Assembly (NCBI GenBank): GCA_017522065.1
Contig: JAFXAD010000058.1
Coordinates: 105,540-169,539 of the forward strand
Direction of reading: 5' to 3'
DNA length: 64,000 bases
Source: Bacteroidales bacterium
Lineage (GTDB): Bacteria > Bacteroidota > Bacteroidia > Bacteroidales > P3
Positions 34,054 to 46,124 of this stretch are shown piece after piece (the stretch's first letter is position 1; the number at the start of each line of letters is the position of its first letter). A program made the translations under genes and the position numbers. The notes beneath the pieces are model-generated. The model was not told where the DNA came from, searched no databases, and saw only the letters and a list, made by a program, of their open reading frames with translations.

Positions 34054-34295
34054 GTCCTGTTTGCTGTCCCATTCAAGTCTGCCAAAGCAATATCGCGCAG
34101 GTTGCGGTCGCTGACATATAACCCGTCGGGGACCGGTTGTGCCAAAACTACCAGAATGGCTATGACGGCTGATGCCATTATGGTGGTGTTCAGTATTGTG
34201 GTGCGCCTTTTGGAACGTTGCCGCTGGCGTATGCACCATTCGTCAAGGCCGTCGGTCATTGCGCGAAGCTGTTGGTGTATATTATTGTTCTCCAT
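34050..34295 (-). CDS. Small single-pass membrane protein, probable anti-sigma partner
   Basis: 81 residues: an N-terminal cytoplasmic helix-rich part of about 30 residues with basic RQRQRSKRRT, a transmembrane segment TIMASAVIAILVVLA (about 37-54), then a short periplasmic tail. Its ATG lies 14 bases inside the end of the sigma factor gene and its stop overlaps the next ATG, so all three are translationally coupled. Small membrane proteins next to ECF sigma genes in Bacteroidales are often anti-sigma factors. No zinc-binding anti-sigma motif (HxxxCxxC) is present, so this role is by position only. Confidence 0.7.
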   Translation of the reverse strand: MENNNIHQQLRAMTDGLDEWCIRQRQRSKRRTTILNTTIMASAVIAILVVLAQPVPDGLYVSDRNLRDIALADLNGTANRT

Positions 34296-34785
34296 AAATA
34301 ACCTTCAATTTTTTTATAATTCTGCAAAAACGTTGATATACAGCGTCGCTCTTTATATTGAGAGCTGACGCAATCTCGGATGCGTCGTATCCGTCCAAGC
34401 GCATCTGTATAAGTTGCCTTTCGCTGTCGCTCAGCAGTTCAGTCATCTCCTCAATGGTCTCTGATAAAACGTCTTGATGTGGACTTTCAGGTATGTCAGG
34501 CAGATTGGAAATGTCATAAAAAACAGCGTCCTTTTCTTTCCGATGCAAGTCGATAAGCACGTTCCTCGCTACACGTCTCAGCCATGCCTTCCGCCCCCGT
34601 TCGCTGGCATCGTCGCGCAACTGGTCGAATTTGAGCCACAGCGTCAGATATACCTCCTGCACCAAGTCGCGACATCTGTCCTGGTCGCCTTTTGCAAAGC
34701 GAAAGCATATCTGCCACACTGTTTGCCGGTGGCTCACCATGAACCTTTCATATTCATTATATCGTTGTGGCGAAAAATCACTCAT
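34282..34785 (-). CDS. ECF-type RNA polymerase sigma factor
   Basis: 167 residues from the ATG at 34785. Region 2 (about 10-80: YNEYERFMVSHRQTVWQICFRF, DLVQEVYLTLW, then AWLRRVARNVLIDLHR) and region 4 (about 110-165: LSDSERQLIQMRL, with the helix-turn-helix ASEIASALNIKSDAVYQR) are clear. ECF sigma factors redirect RNA polymerase to envelope-function genes when released from an anti-sigma partner. It heads a coupled operon with two membrane proteins and a T9SS-exported LRR protein. An open extension to 34902 would translate through the upstream terminator and is rejected. No TAnnTTTG is visible upstream, consistent with possible autoregulation at an ECF-type promoter. Confidence 0.92.
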   Translation of the reverse strand: MSDFSPQRYNEYERFMVSHRQTVWQICFRFAKGDQDRCRDLVQEVYLTLWLKFDQLRDDASERGRKAWLRRVARNVLIDLHRKEKDAVFYDISNLPDIPESPHQDVLSETIEEMTELLSDSERQLIQMRLDGYDASEIASALNIKSDAVYQRFCRIIKKLKVIYGEQ

Positions 34786-34829
34786 ATTATAATATACGTA
34801 AATGGAGGCGATAATCTGACATAGGAGCG

Positions 34830-34870
34830 AAAAAAAATCGAGCTGCCACTGATTTGGCAACTCGATTTTT
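34830..34870 (-). terminator. Terminator of the [FeFe]-hydrogenase operon
   Basis: A 16-bp stem (34833-34848 with 34855-34870, one G-U type mismatch) is followed on the minus strand by eight Us. It separates the hydrogenase operon from the sigma factor gene. Confidence 0.9.
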
Positions 34871-34903
34871 ATCGATTTCGGACTATCGGTCCGTGAAATC
34901 ATC

Positions 34904-35380
34904 TTATTTGTACTCGGCGAGGATGCCGGGAATCTGGTCGGGGGTCAGACGGCCGTAGACCTTGTCGCCAATCATGGCAACAGGAGCCAGACCGCAGGCA
35001 CCGACGCAACGCAGCGTATTCAGCGAGAACTTGCCGTCGGGGGTGCACTTGCCAACCTGGACGTTCAGTTCGCGTGCGAAAGCGTCGAGAACCTTCTCAG
35101 CGCCACGCACGTAGCAAGCCGTACCGAGGCAGACATCGATAGGATGCTCGCCCTTGGGCTCCATGGTGAAGAAGCTGTAGAAAGAGACAATGCCGTATAC
35201 GCGCGACACGGGGATATTCAGTTCGTGGGCGACGACTTCCTGCACCTCGGCGGGCAGATAGCCAAACTTGCCCTGTACCTGGTGGAGGACATTGATGACC
35301 TCGCCGGCACGGTTACCAAAGGATTTAGCAATCTCTTTGATGATGTTGACTTTATCTTCAGATAACTTGATATTTGCCAT
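34904..35380 (-). CDS. hydC: NuoE-like [2Fe-2S] subunit of bifurcating [FeFe] hydrogenase (HydC type)
   Basis: 158 residues, thioredoxin-like [2Fe-2S] ferredoxin. Helical N-terminus (about 1-75), then the four cysteines as CLGTAC (CX4C) and RCVGAC (CX3C), as in NuoE/HydC. It passes electrons between the FMN/NADH-binding HydB subunit and the hydrogenase core. The start at 35380 (MANIKLS) is chosen over 35461 because the longer frame runs through the repeat-filled spacer. It is last in the four-gene operon and followed by a strong terminator. Assignment to a bifurcating complex rests on the gene set, not on biochemistry. Confidence 0.92.
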   Translation of the reverse strand: MANIKLSEDKVNIIKEIAKSFGNRAGEVINVLHQVQGKFGYLPAEVQEVVAHELNIPVSRVYGIVSFYSFFTMEPKGEHPIDVCLGTACYVRGAEKVLDAFARELNVQVGKCTPDGKFSLNTLRCVGACGLAPVAMIGDKVYGRLTPDQIPGILAEYK

Positions 35381-35411
35381 TGTATTTCTGTTTTTTAGTG
35401 ATTCGTGAATT

Positions 35412-35476
35412 GTGAATAGTGAATTGACAAATGACAGCGTCAGTATCGATTCACTATTCACTTGTCACTATTCACA
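35412..35476. repeat. Inverted repeat in the hydA-hydC spacer
   Basis: GTGAATAGTGAAT (35412-35424) is perfectly inverted at 35449-35461. A partial further copy of the inverted arm follows at 35465-35476. It forms a stem with a 24-base loop in the transcript between hydA and hydC. Confidence 0.75.
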
Positions 35477-35482
35477 GTTTAT

Positions 35483-37249
35483 TTACTTTGTTGCTTCGAG
35501 TTTGTCCGATTTGTCGAAGTAGTGGGTGTGCAGCTGCTCATGGCTGAGGTGGCCGCAGGGTTCGCCGTAGTACTCCTTGTAAATAGCCAAAATCTCGGGG
35601 TTCTCGTGGCTCTTGCGGATGGGCTTGCCAGCATCCTCGCGGTAGATGGCTTCCATACGTTTGCGGATGATGTCGCTGTTGCCGTGGTGGTAGGGCTGAC
35701 CGGCACCACCGATGCAACCGCCGGGGCATGCCATGACTTCGATGAAGTGGTAGCCGTTGGGGTTGCCCTGGCGTACCTGTTCCATCATCTTGCGTGCGTT
35801 GCCGAGGCTGTAGACAACGGCAATCTTCAGTGGGAAACCGTCGAAATCGATGGTGGCTTCCTTGACACCGTCGAAACCACGGGTCTCCATGAAGTCGATC
35901 TTCGGCAGGGTCTTGCCGGTGTGGACTTCGTAAGCGGTACGGAGAGCAGCCTCCATAACACCACCGGTGGCACCGAAGATGACAGCAGCACCTGACGACT
36001 GGCCGAGCGGGCTGTCGAAGTCCTCTTCGGGCATGTCGTTGAGGTCGAGGTTGCACTGACGAATCATGTGGGCAAGTTCGCGAGTGCTGAGGGTGAAGTT
36101 GACATCGCTGTCGCCGTTCACGCTGAGTTCCTCACGAGCGCGCTCGCTCTTCTTGGCAAGGCAAGGCATAATGGAAACAACAACGAGGTCTTCGCGTTTG
36201 ACGCCCAGTTTCGGAGCCAGATAGTTCTTGGCGACGGCGCCGAACATACCCTGGGGCGACTTGGCTGTCGAAGGATATTCGAGCAGGTCGGGGAAATTCT
36301 TCTCGTAGAAGGTGACCCATGCGGGGCAGCAGCTGGTGAACATAGGCAGTTTCACCTCTTCGCCTGCGAGGGCTTTCTTGAGGCGGCCGAGGAGCTCGGT
36401 ACCTTCCTCCATGATGGTAAGGTCGGCGCTCCAGTCGGTGTCGTATACCTGGTCGAAACCGAGGCGGCGGAGGGCAGCAGCCATCTTGCCGGTGACGATT
36501 TCGCCGGGTTTCATGCCGAATTCCTCGCCGAGGGCGACGCGGACGGCGGGAGCGGTCTGGACAACGACCTTCTTGGTCGGGTCGGCGATGGCTTCCATGA
36601 CTTTGGAGATGTCGTCAACGAGTGTGAGGGCTCCGACGGGGCATACCTGGACGCACTGGCCGCAGTTGACGCAGCTGCTGTCGCCAAGGTTCTGCTCGAA
36701 AGCGGGAGCAACAACGGCTTGGAAGCCACGGTTGACACCGCTAAGGGCACCGGCGGTCATGAACTTGTTGCACATGGTCTCGCAGCGGCGGCACATGACG
36801 CACTTGTCCATATCGCGATAGACGCTGAGGGTGGAGTCCTTACGGTAGGTAGAGGTTGCGCCCTTGAAGGGGATTTCCTTGATGCCAAGGCGTTTGGTGA
36901 GGCTCTGGAGTTCGCAGTCGCCGTTTTTCTCGCACTGGAGGCAATCGTTCGGGTGGTCGCTGAGGATCAGCTCGACGACAGTCTTGCGAGCGTTGATGAC
37001 GCGTGCGCTGTGGGTAAGGACTTCCATGCCTTCCATAACGTCGGTGGCGCAAGCGGGAGCCAGGTTGCGGCGGCCTTTCACTTCGACCACGCAGACGCGG
37101 CATCCGCCGGGTTTGTTTTCAAAATTCATCCCGTCGAGCTCGAAATGGCAGAGCGTGGGGATATCGATACCGTTCATGCGGGCAGCCTTGAGGATAGTGG
37201 TGCCTTCGGGAACTTGAATCGCTTTGTTATCTATTGTGAGATTAATCAT
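35483..37249 (-). CDS. hydA: [FeFe] hydrogenase catalytic subunit (group A, HydA/HndD type)
   Basis: 588 residues. N-terminal [2Fe-2S] domain (CHFELDG, GGCRVCVVEV, PACAT), the His-Cys cluster HPNDCLQCEKNGDC, two [4Fe-4S] clusters (CVMCRRCETMC and CVNCGQCVQVCP), then the H-cluster domain. Motif L1 is TSCCPAW (about 303) with both the proton-relay Cys and the ligand Cys. L2 is MPCLAKKSE (about 360). L3 is MACPGGCIGGAGQP (about 505), where GGAGQP replaces the common GGGGQP. The C-terminal small-subunit region follows (about 530-575). It reversibly reduces protons to H2 in the cytoplasm. With HydB and HydC it probably oxidises ferredoxin and NADH together. The maturases HydE, F and G are not in the window. 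Confidence 0.95.
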   Translation of the reverse strand: MINLTIDNKAIQVPEGTTILKAARMNGIDIPTLCHFELDGMNFENKPGGCRVCVVEVKGRRNLAPACATDVMEGMEVLTHSARVINARKTVVELILSDHPNDCLQCEKNGDCELQSLTKRLGIKEIPFKGATSTYRKDSTLSVYRDMDKCVMCRRCETMCNKFMTAGALSGVNRGFQAVVAPAFEQNLGDSSCVNCGQCVQVCPVGALTLVDDISKVMEAIADPTKKVVVQTAPAVRVALGEEFGMKPGEIVTGKMAAALRRLGFDQVYDTDWSADLTIMEEGTELLGRLKKALAGEEVKLPMFTSCCPAWVTFYEKNFPDLLEYPSTAKSPQGMFGAVAKNYLAPKLGVKREDLVVVSIMPCLAKKSERAREELSVNGDSDVNFTLSTRELAHMIRQCNLDLNDMPEEDFDSPLGQSSGAAVIFGATGGVMEAALRTAYEVHTGKTLPKIDFMETRGFDGVKEATIDFDGFPLKIAVVYSLGNARKMMEQVRQGNPNGYHFIEVMACPGGCIGGAGQPYHHGNSDIIRKRMEAIYREDAGKPIRKSHENPEILAIYKEYYGEPCGHLSHEQLHTHYFDKSDKLEATK

Positions 37250-37267
37250 TTTGTTTCTTTAATTTAT

Positions 37268-37312
37268 GTCGGACTGGTCGGACTTGTCAGACTAGTCGGA
37301 CGGGTCAGACTA
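37268..37312. repeat. Five 9-bp tandem repeats in the hydB-hydA spacer
   Basis: Five consecutive units of GTC(G/A)GAC plus two variable bases: GTCGGACTG, GTCGGACTT, GTCAGACTA, GTCGGACGG, GTCAGACTA. They sit between the hydB stop and the hydA start. Confidence 0.9.
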
Positions 37313-37316
37313 TATA

Positions 37317-39131
37317 TTATTGAATAGAGATGGCACCAAATTTACAGTTGTTGATACATGCACCGCACTTGATGCACTTGGTGCTGTCGATAACCATCGA
37401 GGCCAGTTTGTGTCCGGGAGCGGTGTAGTCGGTACGGCTGATAGCCTCGACGGGGCATCCCTTGGCGCACTTGCCACATCCGATGCACTTCTCGCGATCG
37501 ATGACGTAGCTCATGAGTTTCTTGCAGACACCGGCGCGGCACTTCTTGTCGACAACGTGCTCGACATATTCATCCCAGAAGTTGTCGAGGGTTGAGAGTA
37601 CCGGGTTCGGTGAGGTCTGACCAAGACCGCAGAGAGCGGTATCCTTGATGACGGCTGCCAGGTTGCGAAGCTCGGTGAGGTCTTCCATGGTACCGCGACC
37701 ATCGGTGATCTTCTCAAGGATTTCGCAGAGGCGTTTGTTACCGATACGGCAGGGCGAGCACTTGCCGCAGCTTTCCTCGCAGGTGAACTCAAGATAGAAT
37801 TTGGCGATAGCAGGCATGCAAGAGGTTTCGTCCATGACGACCATACCGCCAGAGCCCATCATTGAACCGGCAGCGACGAGGCTGTCGTAGTCGATGGCAG
37901 TGTCGAGGTGTTTTGCTGTCAAGCATCCGCCGGAAGGACCACCGGTCTGGACGGCTTTGAACTGACGGCCGTTCTTGATACCACCGCCGATTTCGTAGAT
38001 AATCTCACGCAGGGTGATGCCCATGGGGACTTCGATAAGACCCACGTTGTTGATCTGGCCTGCAAGAGCGAAGACCTTGGTACCTTTGGATTTCTCGGTT
38101 CCAATGCTGCTGAACCAGGCGGCACCCTTGGTGATGATAACGGGGACGTTGGCGAAGGTCTCAACGTTGTTGACGTTGGAGGGCTTGCCCATATAGCCGC
38201 TGACAGCGGGGAATGGAGGTTTCAGAGTGGGCTCGCCACGCTGGCCTTCCATGGAGTGGATAAGGGCTGTTTCCTCACCGCAGACGAATGCACCGGCACC
38301 ATAGCGGAGCTCGATATCGAAATCGAAGCCGCTGCCCATGATGTCCTTACCGAGGAGACCGTATTCGCGGGCCTGGTTGATGGCGATTTTGAGGCGCTCG
38401 ATAGCGAGGGGATATTCAGCACGGATATAGACGAGACCTTTGGAGGCACCGATGGCGTAGCCGCAGATGGCCATAGCCTCGACGATGCTGTTGGGGTCGC
38501 CTTCGAGGATGGAACGGTCCATGAAAGCACCGGGGTCGCCTTCGTCAGCGTTGCAGATGACGTATTTCTGGTCGGCTTTGTTCTTTGCGCAGAGTTCCCA
38601 CTTGAGACCTGTGGGGAAGCCAGCGCCGCCACGACCACGAAGACCGGAGGCCTTCATCTCGGCGATGACCTGCTCGGGGGTCATCTCGGTGAGGCACTTG
38701 CCAAGGGCTTCGTAACCGCCGCGAGAGATGCACTCTTCGATGTTTTCGGGATCTACAAAACCGCAGTTGCGGAGGGCAATACGGATCTGTTTCTTGTAGA
38801 AGTCCATGTGCTTGGAGTCGCTGACGTGCTCTTTGTTCTCAGGGTTGGTGTAGAGCAGATCGGGAACCTTACGGCCCTTGATGATATGCTCGTTGACGAT
38901 GCGCTCAGCATCCTCGGGTTTCACCTGAGTGTAGAAGGTGTTGTCGGGCATGATCTTGACGATAGGGCCACGCTCGCAGAAACCGAAGCATCCGGTCTTG
39001 ATGACCTGGACATCGTCGGAGAGACCTTTTTCGGCAAGGATATTCTTGAAGTTTTCGATAATCTGGAGGCTGTTGGAGCTTTTGCATCCGGTACCGCCGC
39101 AGATTAGGATATGCATTTTGTATTTTGCCAT
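37317..39131 (-). CDS. hydB: NADH/FMN-binding subunit of bifurcating [FeFe] hydrogenase (HydB/NuoF type)
   Basis: 604 residues. An N-terminal thioredoxin-like [2Fe-2S] domain (about 1-90; ICGGTGCKSS, TGCFGFC) precedes the NuoF core with the NADH/FMN site (GLRGRGGAGFPTG, NADEGDPGAF), an SLBB region, and the [4Fe-4S] motif CGKCSPCRIG. Two C-terminal ferredoxin clusters follow (CIGCGKCAKGCP, CIKCGACINNC). This is the standard HydB layout. The start ATG at 39131 is used. The longer open frame to 39194 only translates the 9-bp tandem repeats into Ser-Asp-Lys residues. HydB is thought to be the site of flavin-based electron bifurcation together with its neighbouring clusters. Confidence 0.95.
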   Translation of the reverse strand: MAKYKMHILICGGTGCKSSNSLQIIENFKNILAEKGLSDDVQVIKTGCFGFCERGPIVKIMPDNTFYTQVKPEDAERIVNEHIIKGRKVPDLLYTNPENKEHVSDSKHMDFYKKQIRIALRNCGFVDPENIEECISRGGYEALGKCLTEMTPEQVIAEMKASGLRGRGGAGFPTGLKWELCAKNKADQKYVICNADEGDPGAFMDRSILEGDPNSIVEAMAICGYAIGASKGLVYIRAEYPLAIERLKIAINQAREYGLLGKDIMGSGFDFDIELRYGAGAFVCGEETALIHSMEGQRGEPTLKPPFPAVSGYMGKPSNVNNVETFANVPVIITKGAAWFSSIGTEKSKGTKVFALAGQINNVGLIEVPMGITLREIIYEIGGGIKNGRQFKAVQTGGPSGGCLTAKHLDTAIDYDSLVAAGSMMGSGGMVVMDETSCMPAIAKFYLEFTCEESCGKCSPCRIGNKRLCEILEKITDGRGTMEDLTELRNLAAVIKDTALCGLGQTSPNPVLSTLDNFWDEYVEHVVDKKCRAGVCKKLMSYVIDREKCIGCGKCAKGCPVEAISRTDYTAPGHKLASMVIDSTKCIKCGACINNCKFGAISIQ

Positions 39132-39152
39132 GATTTTCTTTTTTGGGGTAAA

Positions 39153-39188
39153 GTCGGACGGGTCTGACTTGTCAGACGAGTCGGACAG
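39153..39188. repeat. Four 9-bp tandem repeats upstream of hydB
   Basis: GTCGGACGG, GTCTGACTT, GTCAGACGA, GTCGGACAG lie head to tail in the spacer between the ferredoxin-like gene and hydB. The units belong to the same family as those at 37268-37312. Confidence 0.9.
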
Positions 39189-39196
39189 ATTCAACT

Positions 39197-39592
39197 TTAC
39201 TTATCGATTGTTTCGTAATTGACAGGGATGATGCCCTCGACCAGTTCGCCGTTCTGGACATATTTGGTGAGGATTTCGTCGGCGCGGTTGTTGTCGACGT
39301 GTCCGAAAACGATGGGGTCCTTGCCGGGAACGCGCACCTCGAGGGTGGGTTCTGCGTGGCAGTAGCCCATGCATCCGGTCTGTGTGAAGACTGCCTGGAT
39401 GCCAAGTTCGTCGGCTTTCTGCATCATGTGTTCCATTACCTGCTTGGCACCGGCGGCAATACCACAAGTAGCCATAGCGACTTTGATTTGCACAAGCGAT
39501 TCGGGGTGTTCGGCTTTTTCGCGGACATCCAGATTCGACTGAAGCTTTTCTCTCATGGCCTTGAGGTCGGCCAGCGATTTAACTTTTGTCAT
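39197..39592 (-). CDS. (2Fe-2S) ferredoxin domain protein of the hydrogenase operon
   Basis: 131 residues, thioredoxin-like [2Fe-2S] ferredoxin. The cysteines occur as AMATCGIAAG and TGCMGYC, similar to the N-terminal domain of HydB. Related small ferredoxins open many NADH/NADPH-linked hydrogenase operons and probably form an extra electron entry or exit point. First gene of the operon, preceded by a TAnnTTTG promoter (39688-39695). An AAAGGAG sequence lies about 9 bases before the ATG, an unusually good Shine-Dalgarno for this phylum. hydB follows after 65 bases containing tandem repeats. Confidence 0.9.
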   Translation of the reverse strand: MTKVKSLADLKAMREKLQSNLDVREKAEHPESLVQIKVAMATCGIAAGAKQVMEHMMQKADELGIQAVFTQTGCMGYCHAEPTLEVRVPGKDPIVFGHVDNNRADEILTKYVQNGELVEGIIPVNYETIDK

Positions 39593-43244: not shown

Positions 43245-43793
43245 CTAAAAATTATGCAATCGTAGAAAAAGTAATCCAGTGACTACTGCTGTCAAATCAA
43301 GGCTGAAACTCATTGTGAAAAAAGGTCTGTCCCAATAGTTTGTCAATCCCATCGCTAAACTTGTCCATGCAAATTTGCTTCTGTTTGCTTTTGCTCCAGG
43401 TGCTATGCGTAAGCCACCATCAAGTCCTAATCTTGGGGTTAAATGATGGTCGAATTTGCAGGCAAGAGTAACTCCGCTGTAAAATTGAATATCAATTTTT
43501 TGACTTGTATCGAAAGGTCTATAGACAACACCGCATACAGCTCCTGCGTAGTCTTTTATGGGGCCCGCGGCGTATGACAAAGACCCATACCATCCCCAAT
43601 GTTCGGGAACGTGAGCATACTGCAGTCCAAAACCAATGCCCAGATTTACCATTGCGTGATCTGGTTCGCTGTCGCCAGGTCCTATCTGTAGCCGTGTTTC
43701 AAGGAAATGAGTCGAAAAGCGAAGCGTGTCTTGTGTGTTTTGTGCCGATGCAGTGAATGCTGCAATCATAAGAAAGAATACAAGTCGTCTCAT
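43245..43793 (-). CDS. Small predicted outer-membrane beta-barrel protein
   Basis: 182 residues: signal peptide (MRRLVFFLMIAAFTASAQ) and about eight predicted amphipathic strands separated by short turns (VNLGIGFGLQYAHV, GWYGSLSYAAG, VTLACKFDHHLTPRLGLDGGL), ending with aromatic F. The size and pattern fit a small OmpX/OmpW-like barrel, but no specific family is recognised and the C-terminal LLFLRLHNF is more hydrophobic than usual. Convergent with the helicase gene (28 bases between stops). No clear promoter element. Confidence 0.7.
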   Translation of the reverse strand: MRRLVFFLMIAAFTASAQNTQDTLRFSTHFLETRLQIGPGDSEPDHAMVNLGIGFGLQYAHVPEHWGWYGSLSYAAGPIKDYAGAVCGVVYRPFDTSQKIDIQFYSGVTLACKFDHHLTPRLGLDGGLRIAPGAKANRSKFAWTSLAMGLTNYWDRPFFTMSFSLDLTAVVTGLLFLRLHNF

Positions 43794-43834: not shown

Positions 43835-45184
43835 TTATTCCTTCATTCTGTCACCGCCCCATACGGCGTTCATGGCGGCGATACACTCCTGGCGTGTGAT
43901 GTCGTTGTTGCGTTCGAGGTGGCGCTGGTAGAAGATGCAGCGCGACATACCAATGCGGTTTATCACCACGTCGCCGGCAAAACTCTCGCAGGTCGGAGCG
44001 CCACAGAGTCCGCAGTCTATCTGAGGCAGACGCTCTTTGAGCTTGTTGATTTGGTTCATCTTTTCAAAAGCCTTTTTGCGGTCTTTGTCGAGTACGAACA
44101 TCGAGCGAGGCTGTGGGGCTTCAACCCGGCTGTTGGCAATCAGGTAGTCTTTCATTTTGTCCATCTCGCGTTCGCGCGGCACCTCGCCGTTGCGCTCGCG
44201 TTCGGCGGCTTTGCGGGCCCGGGCATACATTCGTGCGCCGCAAAGGAAACGATTCTCGTAGCTGAGCAAGGCACCTGCACAGCTCTGGTCGCATGCGCGA
44301 AGCTCGAGAAATTCGACATCCTCTACTTCGTCGTTCTCCAGCTTGTCGAGGAAATCCATCACGTTCTGAATCCCGTCGATGGAGTAGGACTTCTTTGCTA
44401 AGCAGATGCGCCGCTCGCCGTTGGTGAGGGTGCTTAGGATGGCGTCGGACGACAGGTTGATTGTCCGGTTCTGTTTAGGTATATAGTTTTTGCCTTGTTC
44501 CTTGATTCTGCGATATGTGCGATTGAAGAGCGAATCCATGTTTATCACTCCGTCGATAAGTGAGCGTTTCTCGCCGATAGGGGCTTTCACGGCGGCTATT
44601 TTCGCTGCGCAAGGGGTGACATAGAAGAGCCCTATCTCTTCGCGCGGAATGCCGCGGTTCTGGAGTTCCTGCAGACAATATATGGCCGAGATGTCGAGAG
44701 GAGCCTTGATGGGGGTGATGTTCTCGACGAGCGATGGATACTTGATTTGAATCAGTCGCACAATGGCCGGGCAGAAACTGGATATGAGCGGTCTGATGTC
44801 AGGGTTTTCGCGAGCGTATTTCTCTTTGGCTTCGGCGTAGATGTTGGCGGCAGATTCGACTTCGAACACATGTCGGAACCCGAGGTCCTCCAAGGCAGAG
44901 TATATTCGCGACACGCGTATCTCTTCAGGAAACTGGCCCAGGAAAACCGATGGTATCAATGCCACCGAATGAGGGAACTCGTGTACCATTTCGAAGTCGT
45001 CCTGTTTTATATATATAGCCTTTGTGGGGCAGACTTCATGACATTTGCCGCAGTCGATGCAACGATGCTCCTGGATGTATGCCGAGCCTTCGCTGATGCG
45101 GATGGCCTCGGTGGGACATGTCTTCAGGCAGCGCATGCATCCGATGCATTTTCTGTCGTCTATTAGTAATGCGTGTACGAACAT
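43835..45184 (-). CDS. [FeFe]-hydrogenase-like putative sensor protein with N- and C-terminal Fe-S domains
   Basis: 449 residues. Two N-terminal [4Fe-4S] ferredoxin clusters (CIGCMRCLKTCP; CIDCGKCHEVCP) precede a hydrogenase H-cluster-type domain. L1 is SSFCPAI (about 139): the ligand Cys is kept but Phe replaces the proton-relay Cys of TSCCP. L2 is TPCAAK (about 190). L3 is RACDQSCAG (about 297), so four H-cluster ligand cysteines are present. A C-terminal Fe-S domain (about 390-415) has CGLCGAPTC and a further Cys. This matches the putative sensory [FeFe]-hydrogenase groups that accompany catalytic group A enzymes. It is the third gene of a DRTGG-RsbW-hydrogenase cluster, 89 bases after the ATPase gene. 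The sensing role is inferred from the altered motif and neighbours; no PAS domain is present. Confidence 0.85.
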   Translation of the reverse strand: MFVHALLIDDRKCIGCMRCLKTCPTEAIRISEGSAYIQEHRCIDCGKCHEVCPTKAIYIKQDDFEMVHEFPHSVALIPSVFLGQFPEEIRVSRIYSALEDLGFRHVFEVESAANIYAEAKEKYARENPDIRPLISSFCPAIVRLIQIKYPSLVENITPIKAPLDISAIYCLQELQNRGIPREEIGLFYVTPCAAKIAAVKAPIGEKRSLIDGVINMDSLFNRTYRRIKEQGKNYIPKQNRTINLSSDAILSTLTNGERRICLAKKSYSIDGIQNVMDFLDKLENDEVEDVEFLELRACDQSCAGALLSYENRFLCGARMYARARKAAERERNGEVPREREMDKMKDYLIANSRVEAPQPRSMFVLDKDRKKAFEKMNQINKLKERLPQIDCGLCGAPTCESFAGDVVINRIGMSRCIFYQRHLERNNDITRQECIAAMNAVWGGDRMKE

Positions 45185-45273
45185 GATGGATGGTTGTTGA
45201 ATGGGTTGATGATGGATTGTTGAGATTCAGACGGCTTGCGAAGCGGTTTTTGCTGTGGAAATGTCAGGTGCAG

Positions 45274-45684
45274 CTAAAAGTTGACTTCCATTTCCACGGT
45301 GGTGCCTACGCCCACTTCGCTTGTGACGTTGAGTTTGTCGACATTCTTCTGCATGTTTGGCAGACCCATGCCTGCTCCGAAGCCCATGTCGCGGACTTCT
45401 GGTCGTGCGGTGGAGTAGCCCTCCTGCATGGCAAGCGCAATATCAGGTATGCCAGGACCCTTGTCGGCCACGACCATTTTGATTTTGTCGGAGTCTATGT
45501 CGACAAGGACCTTGCCGCCGTAGGCATGCGCAATGGCATTGACCTCGGCTTCGTAAAGTGCCACTACCACGCGCTTTACGATGGCAGGTTCGACGTTGAG
45601 TTGTTTGAGGGTTTTCTTGACAGAGCTGGAGGCTTTTCCGGCGTTGACAAAATCGCCTTCGATAACGGTGTATTCTTGGTGCAT
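45274..45684 (-). CDS. RsbW/SpoIIAB-like GHKL ATPase (anti-sigma-type kinase)
   Basis: 136-residue stand-alone HATPase_c domain. The N-box is ALYEAEVNAIAHA (Glu and Asn for Mg-ATP), the G1 box ADKGPGIPD, and the G2 box GFGAGMGLPN. In RsbW/SpoIIAB this fold is a serine kinase and binds a sigma factor. No RsbV-type antagonist or SpoIIE-type phosphatase is in the window, and no alternative sigma of the SigB type is adjacent. Its place between a DRTGG-domain gene and a hydrogenase-like sensor suggests it relays a redox or H2 signal. Gaps are 36 bases to the upstream gene and 89 to the downstream gene. Confidence 0.88.
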   Translation of the reverse strand: MHQEYTVIEGDFVNAGKASSSVKKTLKQLNVEPAIVKRVVVALYEAEVNAIAHAYGGKVLVDIDSDKIKMVVADKGPGIPDIALAMQEGYSTARPEVRDMGFGAGMGLPNMQKNVDKLNVTSEVGVGTTVEMEVNF

Positions 45685-45720
45685 TTTGACAGTATTTTGA
45701 GATTGGATATAGTGGTTTTG

Positions 45721-46062
45721 TCAGTAGAGGGGTTTGATTCCGGCCTCGTAGAGCAGGCCGCAGGCCTTGAACATGGAATATGAGCAGGAGAGAATGACCA
45801 TGTCGTTGTCTTCGGCAAGCTCGATCATGTCTTCGGTGACTTTTTTGTTGCGCACAATTACAATGATGTCGAGCGTCGCCATGTCGCAGGTGCGGATGGT
45901 CTGTACATTGCACAATCCGGTTATGAGCATGGGGGTGTCTTTGAGAGTTAGCACGTCGCTCATCAGGTCGGAGGCAAAACCGTATTCTACTTCTTCGTCG
46001 AGCCGGTTCTCACCGATGCAGACAGATGCGTCAAGCAATTTGGCTATTTCGCGAATTGTCAT
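45721..46062 (-). CDS. DRTGG-domain protein
   Basis: 113 residues from the ATG at 46062 (MTIREIAKLL). The whole protein is a single DRTGG-like domain with the expected pattern of an N-terminal helix, YGFASDLMSDVL in place of the canonical DRTGG patch, and repeated beta-alpha units ending with a CGLLYEAGI helix. DRTGG domains are found next to CBS and PTA domains and as small proteins in hydrogenase-linked operons; the ligand is not established. It opens the cluster and has its own TAAATTTG -7 element. The open extension to 46227 crosses the promoter and is not used. Confidence 0.8.
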   Translation of the reverse strand: MTIREIAKLLDASVCIGENRLDEEVEYGFASDLMSDVLTLKDTPMLITGLCNVQTIRTCDMATLDIIVIVRNKKVTEDMIELAEDNDMVILSCSYSMFKACGLLYEAGIKPLY

Positions 46063-46116
46063 TTTGTTTTGGATTTTTAATGGTTGATTATGTTTTTTGA
46101 TGTAAAAAAGAAAATG

Positions 46117-46124
46117 CAAATTTA
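46117..46124 (-). promoter_or_regulatory. -7 element for the DRTGG-RsbW-hydrogenase-like operon
   Basis: The minus strand reads TAAATTTG (TAnnTTTG), 54 bases upstream of the ATG at 46062. A CTTG lies 17 bases further upstream. Confidence 0.6.

Follow-up and report, generated by a model that had tools for sequence, protein, structure and literature searches.

A group D putative sensory [FeFe]-hydrogenase in a Bacteroidales genome belongs to a six-gene cassette linked to HydBC-type hydrogenases

We analysed a 64,000-nucleotide stretch of contig JAFXAD010000058.1 from a Bacteroidales bacterium (assembly GCA_017522065.1, positions 105,540 to 169,539; G000:C58:105540-169539 in our labels). We call this whole stretch the window; it is part of a 2.6-Mb genome. 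Our subject is a trio of genes in the window that encode a DRTGG-like protein (DRTGG1), a stand-alone GHKL ATPase (ATPase1), and a putative sensory [FeFe]-hydrogenase (HydS). These three genes make up the first half of a set of six, the cassette DRTGG1-ATPase1-HydS-DRTGG2-PHP-ATPase2, where PHP stands for a PHP phosphoesterase. The closest named relatives, by HydS (88-94% identity), are Bacteroidales genomes that are mostly labelled as coming from the ruminant gut. The features of the locus are listed in Table 1.

Table 1. Features of the trio and of the nearby hydrogenase operon; positions are those of the window
Feature	Position	Strand	Basis
TAnnTTTG promoter element TAAATTTG	46117..46124	-	sequence; 62 nt upstream of DRTGG1 start
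DRTGG1, 113 aa, DRTGG-like protein	45721..46062	-	Pfam DRTGG 20.8 bits, under cut-off 25.2
ATPase1, 136 aa, stand-alone GHKL ATPase	45274..45684	-	HATPase_c_2 53.4 bits; SpoIIAB closest solved structure
HydS, 449 aa, group D (M2e) putative sensory [FeFe]-hydrogenase	43835..45184	-	Pfam, motifs, alignment, tree
HydS codon F137, at proton-relay Cys299 of catalytic enzymes	44774..44776	-	Phe in 107/108 group D rows
HydS residues 391-416, C-terminal Cx2Cx4Cx16C cluster motif	43937..44014	-	motif; FeS PF04060 35.8 bits
HydABC-type operon: 131-aa 2Fe-2S protein, HydB, HydA, HydC	34904..39592	-	likely regulation target (inferred)

All three genes are intact and run in one direction, with 36 nt between DRTGG1 and ATPase1 and 89 nt between ATPase1 and HydS. 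Upstream of them is TAAATTTG, which we take to be the TAnnTTTG promoter element of the Bacteroidetes. This motif lies within 110 nt of the DRTGG1 start in 64 of 68 loci (the window included, all with DRTGG1 identity of at least 62%), as against a mean of 4.7 and a maximum of 12 in 200 single-base shuffles, and there is no copy in the gap between ATPase1 and HydS. An earlier reading of the window, made from the sequence only, had described three co-directional genes behind one such promoter, and this description holds.

The sequence features of HydS place it among the putative sensory [FeFe]-hydrogenases of group D (M2e), with the sensory type and not the catalytic type. It has two N-terminal 4Fe-4S motifs, an H-domain (Fe_hyd_lg_C, 88 bits), and a C-terminal Cx2Cx4Cx16C motif with a match to FeS (PF04060). 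A Pfam search found no PAS domain in HydS, so it lacks the mark of group C (M2f). This is the architecture of group D, whose marks (the architecture, the Cys299 and Met353 positions, and the proton path) we took from PMC6984386, PMC8163306, and PMC10407848. The sequence-only reading had noticed that HydS keeps the four H-cluster cysteines (in SSFCP, TPCAAK, and RACDQSC), that it has a phenylalanine for the proton-relay cysteine of the catalytic HydA in the same window (TSCCP; HydA is at 35483-37249), and that it has an extra C-terminal iron-sulfur domain. All of this is borne out, and the extra domain is the Cx2Cx4Cx16C cluster domain that is typical of groups C and D. The residues that mark the catalytic enzymes of group A (Cys299 and Met353/Met497) are absent from HydS, which has F137, T190, and R296 instead, and HydS reaches 87 of 406 bits against TIGR02512.

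These features are shared across the family. We aligned 108 rows of group D proteins, of which 106 are from Bacteroidales loci and the others are from Parabacteroides distasonis (L113) and a Firmicute (L114); the window's protein is in twice (L002 and L003), and the loci of relatives and the named loci may share some species. Two of the H-cluster ligands, C138 and C192, are present in every row, and C298 and C302 are present in 107 rows, with one gap. The position of Cys299 holds Phe137 except in the Firmicute row, which has Ala; the position of Met353 is Thr190 in 108/108 rows; and the position of Met497 is Arg296 in 106. T254, E257, D270, and E294 of HydS correspond to the proton path S249, E252, D265, and E289 of TamHydS, the group D protein of Thermoanaerobacter mathranii: the spacing is identical and the alignment agrees. 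E257 and D270 are invariant (108/108 rows, L114 included).

In a tree of 24 proteins, groups D, C, and A each form one branch (supports of 100/100, 100/99, and 100/100, respectively), and HydS falls among the 11 rows of group D, apart from the catalytic HydA. This agrees with the proposal that HydS is a sensory rather than a catalytic hydrogenase; a grouping with catalytic enzymes, which the earlier reading had named among the results that would speak against it, was not seen. Among the rows of the tree, L114 (group D) is without its N-terminal part (322 aa), L083 is a 938-aa run-on, and L150 is on a long branch. The group C labels come from a PAS domain for L140, from the literature for Ruminococcus albus (L115), and from likeness for the rest, and the group B row of L140 passes TIGR04105 (544.6 of 450 bits). 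In the run-on (L083, 9968-12784), HydS is in frame with a downstream secreted-type protein, for 938 aa in total. A true fusion between HydS and an output domain was considered and rejected, because the extra ~490 residues start like a signal peptide; by eye, two genes were most likely run together.

The neighbours of HydS are conserved too. DRTGG1 and ATPase1 lie upstream of HydS, on its strand, in all 25 loci from the window's genome and 24 relatives, and the same order occurs in 78 of 80 other loci; the two exceptions (L084 and L107) end at contig ends. The trio is also present in 6/6 further loci, of which one is from a Firmicute. So the three genes are kept together in relatives, as the sequence-only reading expected, and its three-gene module is real, but it is incomplete: it is half of a cassette. 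All six genes, in the order given above, are found in Marinifilum (L102), Candidatus Colimorpha (L070), and P. distasonis (L113), where the NCBI annotation reads hypothetical protein, ATP-binding protein, hydrogenase, DRTGG, PHP, ATP-binding protein. In Marinifilum and Candidatus Colimorpha, the cassette is followed by the 2Fe-2S protein, HydB, HydA, and HydC, so that homologues of the window's HydABC operon genes stand directly behind the cassette in relatives. The Firmicute locus (L114, a Subdoligranulum plasmid record) has DRTGG1, ATPase1, a 231-aa DUF3592 gene, HydS, DRTGG2, and PHP, with HydC, ATPase2, the 2Fe-2S protein, HydB, and HydA divergent and adjoining. Its HydA (1127-2851) has TSCSP, with Ser replacing the first H-cluster ligand Cys of the other HydA rows, which is either real or a sequence error. 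Among the 80 loci, DRTGG2 was seen beside HydS in 35, not seen in 41, and undecided in 4; this count used DRTGG1 as the query, and some may be missed.

Taken alone, the label DRTGG for the first gene of the trio is weak, because its score is under the Pfam cut-off: there is a match to DRTGG (PF07085), as the earlier reading had it, but the gathering cut-off is not reached (Table 1). DRTGG2 of the window's genome does pass (38.8 bits), and a tblastn search with DRTGG1 also matches the DRTGG2 that is downstream of HydS in relatives, at 22-35% identity. DRTGG1 has conserved positions across 104 aligned rows. No useful match to a solved structure was found for it (best E of 0.14).

In the window's genome, the cassette is spread over three loci, with all of its parts kept. 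The DRTGG2 and PHP genes share 8 bases and lie on contig C59, and ATPase2 is on contig C52, so a loss of these three genes from the lineage, which we had considered, is ruled out. We compared 41 genomes (the window's own and 40 relatives); 25 of them belong to a single genus, and the counts are affected by this kinship. Group D HydS is carried by 25 of the 41, and 20 of these carriers are in the window's genus. Among the 20, DRTGG2 lies away from HydS in 18, is adjacent to it in G014, and is unmatched in G011, and ATPase2 is on a contig other than that of HydS in 19. DRTGG2 and PHP stay within 250 nt of each other in 17 of the 18 genomes with DRTGG2 away from HydS (in G009 they are 2.1 kb apart). 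DRTGG2 and PHP are each present in 24/25 carriers versus 2/16 non-carriers, and ATPase2 (E <1e-40) in 25/25 versus 1/16. The exceptions to co-retention are G011, G007, and G010, whose genomes are 67, 79, and 82% complete. At the level of genera, DRTGG2 and PHP are present in 6/6 versus 0/11 (one-sided Fisher test, 8e-5, with kinship not corrected). All 25 carriers also have HydA or HydB. In two of them (G009 and G025) we found HydB only, at a contig edge, so we do not count these as cassettes without HydABC.

The cassette also occurs with a different type of hydrogenase. A phylum-wide search found HydS at E <=1e-60 in at least 5 of 395 genomes, the window's own included. In three of these genomes, which are from other classes of Bacteroidota (G212, G220, and G377), the six cassette genes are followed, in order, by HydC, the 2Fe-2S protein, and HydB. 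The gene after HydB has an N-terminal HydA-like part joined to part of HdrA, and no Fe_hyd match was found in it (L152 was searched). Its HdrA part scores 445 bits (L152) or 430 bits (L153) against NF040770, whose cut-off of 1100 is for a whole HdrA, and the gene of L151 is 80% identical to that of L152. In each of the three loci, the next genes are those for FlpD and for a [NiFe] hydrogenase, small and large subunits (identified by Pfam in two loci and by 65-72% identity in the third), with a radical-SAM gene between in L152, and each locus has an HdrA N-terminal gene ahead of the cassette. So the link to hydrogenases survives a change of enzyme type, and here the metal centre of the sensor differs from that of the catalytic enzyme, which makes this an independent case. 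Because the three HydS proteins form one branch of the tree (97/97), we count it as one event. Nowhere in the literature covered, including the available parts of PMC9304861 and PMC8880783, did we see a group D sensor described together with a [NiFe] operon, which is no proof of absence. In G377, by eye, a trio of STAS, RsbW-type ATPase, and phosphatase-type genes (L155, 13044-15540, contig C13) lies ~3.7 kb upstream of the [NiFe]-linked operon.

All four H-cluster cysteines, as well as Phe137 and Thr190, are retained in the HydS proteins of the [NiFe]-linked loci (L148-L150). These proteins differ in having Q, Q, or L at E252, G, A, or S at D265, and V, L, or I at S249, and the second cysteine of the first cluster motif is replaced by H, R, or D.

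The HydABC operon of the window lies 4.2 kb from the trio. Its HydA passes NF040763 (868 of 765 bits), which is named "NADH-dependent [FeFe] hydrogenase, group A6". Our term bifurcating-type for the operon reflects its HydB/HydC layout and is itself no test of bifurcation; the operon would be the likely target of regulation by the trio. Behind HydS itself, 41 nt away and co-directional, is a gene for a 182-aa protein (43245-43793, minus strand) with an apparent signal peptide and no Pfam match; a homologue is at that place in 8 of 19 close relatives.

How might the cassette work? We think it probable that, in a conserved cassette that regulates HydBC-type (electron-bifurcating type) hydrogenases, the trio makes up the sensing half. 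The H-cluster of HydS would turn over slowly and be the point of contact with H2 or low-potential electrons; the state of the H-cluster would lead to a change in the C-terminal [4Fe-4S] domain or in conformation; and ATPase1 would read this change. The likeliest partner of ATPase1 would be DRTGG1 and not a STAS protein or a sigma factor. DRTGG2-PHP and ATPase2 would be the second half, which in the window's lineage would act in trans, and the end effect would be to adjust the level or activity of HydABC. The direct basis for this reading is the family marks, the active-site residues, the gene linkage, the co-retention of six genes, and the many carriers without a detectable STAS or SpoIIE partner. 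We infer that H2 is the signal because HydS is of this family and a hydrogenase is always present, and that ATPase1 contacts DRTGG1 because their genes are linked and many carriers lack the usual partner; the direction of electron flow and the output are what we would expect on this reading. As the natural break-up of the cassette leaves ATPase1 and DRTGG1 beside HydS, these are the first two proteins of interest.

A bolder version, which we put forward tentatively and which may well be wrong, is that all six genes work as a single H2-responsive relay, of a kind that has yet to be named. HydS would gate a SpoIIAB-like kinase with a DRTGG protein instead of STAS as its substrate, and DRTGG2, PHP, and ATPase2 would be the return arm. 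Such a relay would be portable between the [FeFe] HydABC enzymes of Bacteroidales and a Firmicute and, in other classes of Bacteroidota, Hdr-linked [NiFe] enzymes with the same HydBC core, where the sensor would do without the known proton path.

Several points weigh against a regulatory cassette that senses H2. We found no experiment that demonstrates H2 sensing in vivo by a group D protein in the available parts of the literature covered. We found neither an output gene nor a DNA-binding protein or a shared operator; by eye, the only upstream block that looked conserved in both operons is the promoter, and the AraC regulator that is beside TamHydS according to PMC8163306 was not seen here. 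Seven of 30 genomes with HydA are without group D HydS (G003, G020, G031, G032, G033, G034, and G040). HydF passes its cut-off in 22 of the 25 carriers, the exceptions being G011, G014, and G027. It is doubtful that the [NiFe]-linked HydS proteins turn over H2, because they lack one N-terminal cluster cysteine and the proton path of group D. (HydF was also not found in the stretches around these three loci, but a search of these stretches alone says little.) The window's own genome has SpoIIE, a further HATPase, and a stand-alone STAS protein, outside the window. Finally, the grouping of D with C in the tree rests on a very short branch (93/93, length 0.01) and a midpoint root, with no TamHydS or named group D reference. 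Separately, we note that G014 and G027, which have HydA and HydS but no HydF over the cut-off, are 97 and 98% complete, so that there is either an assembly gap or an unusual maturation.

Instead of signalling to transcription, the cassette could serve the assembly or the post-translational control of the enzyme complex (cluster insertion or repair, or locking of an inactive form), with HydS as a scaffold or an electron donor. The cassette stands with HydB and HydC for [FeFe] and [NiFe] catalytic parts alike, as might be expected for such a role, and we noticed, by eye, no transcription factor in the operons listed. Nevertheless, we consider this unlikely given the seven genomes that have HydA without group D HydS and the PAS domain on related group C proteins (tested in L140 only).

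There is also a small chance that HydS reads the redox poise of ferredoxin/NADH through its iron-sulfur clusters and that H2 is not a ligand. This is a sub-version of the reading that we prefer, so their odds overlap. It would account for the [NiFe]-linked HydS proteins, which are without the published proton path yet have the H-cluster cysteines, Phe137, and Thr190. Against it, E257 and D270 are kept in every row of the alignment, the Firmicute included, which suggests that H2 chemistry is in use, and TamHydS has a raised affinity for H2 (PMC8163306).

The sequence-only reading proposed that the ATPase acts in partner switching of the RsbW/SpoIIAB type, by binding a sigma factor or phosphorylating a STAS protein. 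The closest solved structures of ATPase1 are indeed SpoIIAB chains (1til, 1th8, 1l0o, and 1tid, with E ~3e-8), its GHKL ATP-binding boxes are invariant in 105 rows, and its best match in NCBIfam is the anti-sigma F factor. But it reaches only 69.1 of 135 bits for that equivalog and 29.2 of 145 bits for RsbW. Furthermore, in 15 of the 25 carriers, STAS (PF01740) had no match or matched only in frames of at least 566 aa, which we take to be the size of sulfate transporters (PF13466 was not searched). These carriers are G002, G006, G009, G011, G012, G014, G016, G018, G019, G021, G024, G025, G027, G029, and G037, of which 11 are at least 90% complete and 4 are less so; five of them (G011, G012, G014, G024, and G025) also have no match to SpoIIE. 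An ECF-type sigma factor gene (34282-34902, minus strand, with Sigma70_r2 and r4_2 domains) is directly behind hydC, and we rejected it as the output since it was found there in none of the 7 relatives whose sequence extends 700 nt or more beyond hydC. So this route seems very unlikely. The earlier statement that there is no PAS, SpoIIE, or RsbV partner at the locus stands: besides the missing PAS match, the SpoIIE and STAS matches of the window's genome are on contigs C54, C47, and C30, while the window is on C58. Because they are in the genome, crosstalk with the trio may occur in the window's species. On these contigs, a HATPase_c_2 protein beside SpoIIE (G000:C54:16528-17605) and STAS (C47:46740-47033) make up a separate set.

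ATPase1 is better conserved than HydS at every distance: mean identities are 97.6 versus 91.5%, 92.5 versus 72.6%, and 61.5 versus 46.4% in three distance bins of 22, 45, and 35 loci. That HydS is just a slow metabolic hydrogenase with no role in signalling is highly improbable: TamHydS is bidirectional at a low rate (PMC8163306, PMC10407848), but HydS has no cysteine relay, it is coupled to ATPase and DRTGG genes in all loci that are not cut short, and all 25 carriers also have HydA or HydB.

We return to the regulatory cassette that we prefer and to how it compares with known systems. Hydrogen handling by rumen bacteria bears on the formation of methane, and the available parts of PMC8163306 and PMC13104023 leave open how the sensory [FeFe]-hydrogenases of group D transmit a signal. 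(We also drew on PMC3990059, PMC10055695, PMC11837493, PMC3608648, PMC10102598, PMC8924675, PMC12578642, and PMC5707799.) The nearest relative that has been studied is TamHydS (group D/M2e), which has the same domain order as HydS, the Cx2Cx4Cx16C motif, no PAS, no Cys299, Thr or Ser at Met353, the proton path E252-E289-S249-D265, an ATPase neighbour, and a linked bifurcating hydrogenase (PMC6984386, PMC8163306, PMC10407848). At the Cys299 position, HydS has Phe whereas TamHydS and the group C protein TmHydS have Ala; at the Met497 position, HydS has Arg296, TamHydS Leu, and TmHydS Ser. Also, unlike for TamHydS, the cassette is split here, with the trio 4.2 kb from the hydrogenase operon. The descriptions of TamHydS, in the parts available, mention the AraC regulator, and we found no mention there of DRTGG, PHP, or a second ATPase.

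The group C proteins (TmHydS and HydS of R. albus) are like the window's HydS in being putative sensors with a C-terminal FeS domain and a link to another hydrogenase. They differ in having a PAS domain (PAS_8/PAS_9 in L140; in R. albus according to PMC6776011) and an adjoining gene for a SpoIIE-type phosphatase (L115, L116, and L140), which is not beside the window's HydS. So group C sensors adjoin a phosphatase gene and group D sensors a kinase-like ATPase, and in one genome (G001) the two operons are convergent neighbours: on contig C5 (L140, 2435-9100), a group D trio ends 9 nt from an operon of group C HydS-PAS, SpoIIE-type phosphatase, and group B hydrogenase.

ATPase1 resembles SpoIIAB and RsbW as a stand-alone GHKL ATPase with intact ATP-binding boxes, and it differs from them in its scores under the equivalog cut-offs, in the many carriers without a detectable STAS partner, and in its linkage to a hydrogenase-like protein. 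The NiFe-HydABCSL operon of Acetomicrobium mobile (with HydD, HydP, and HisK) shares with the [NiFe]-linked loci (L151-L153) a HydBC core, a [NiFe] unit, and a kinase-like gene; we found no mention of a group D [FeFe] sensor in the available parts of PMC8880783 and PMC9304861. Because the group D family, with a kinase-like ATPase upstream of a bifurcating hydrogenase, has already been described, the trio is of a recognised kind and is not a new kind of system. What we add is the six-gene cassette, which in the window's genome is split yet kept and which is found with two unrelated types of hydrogenase.

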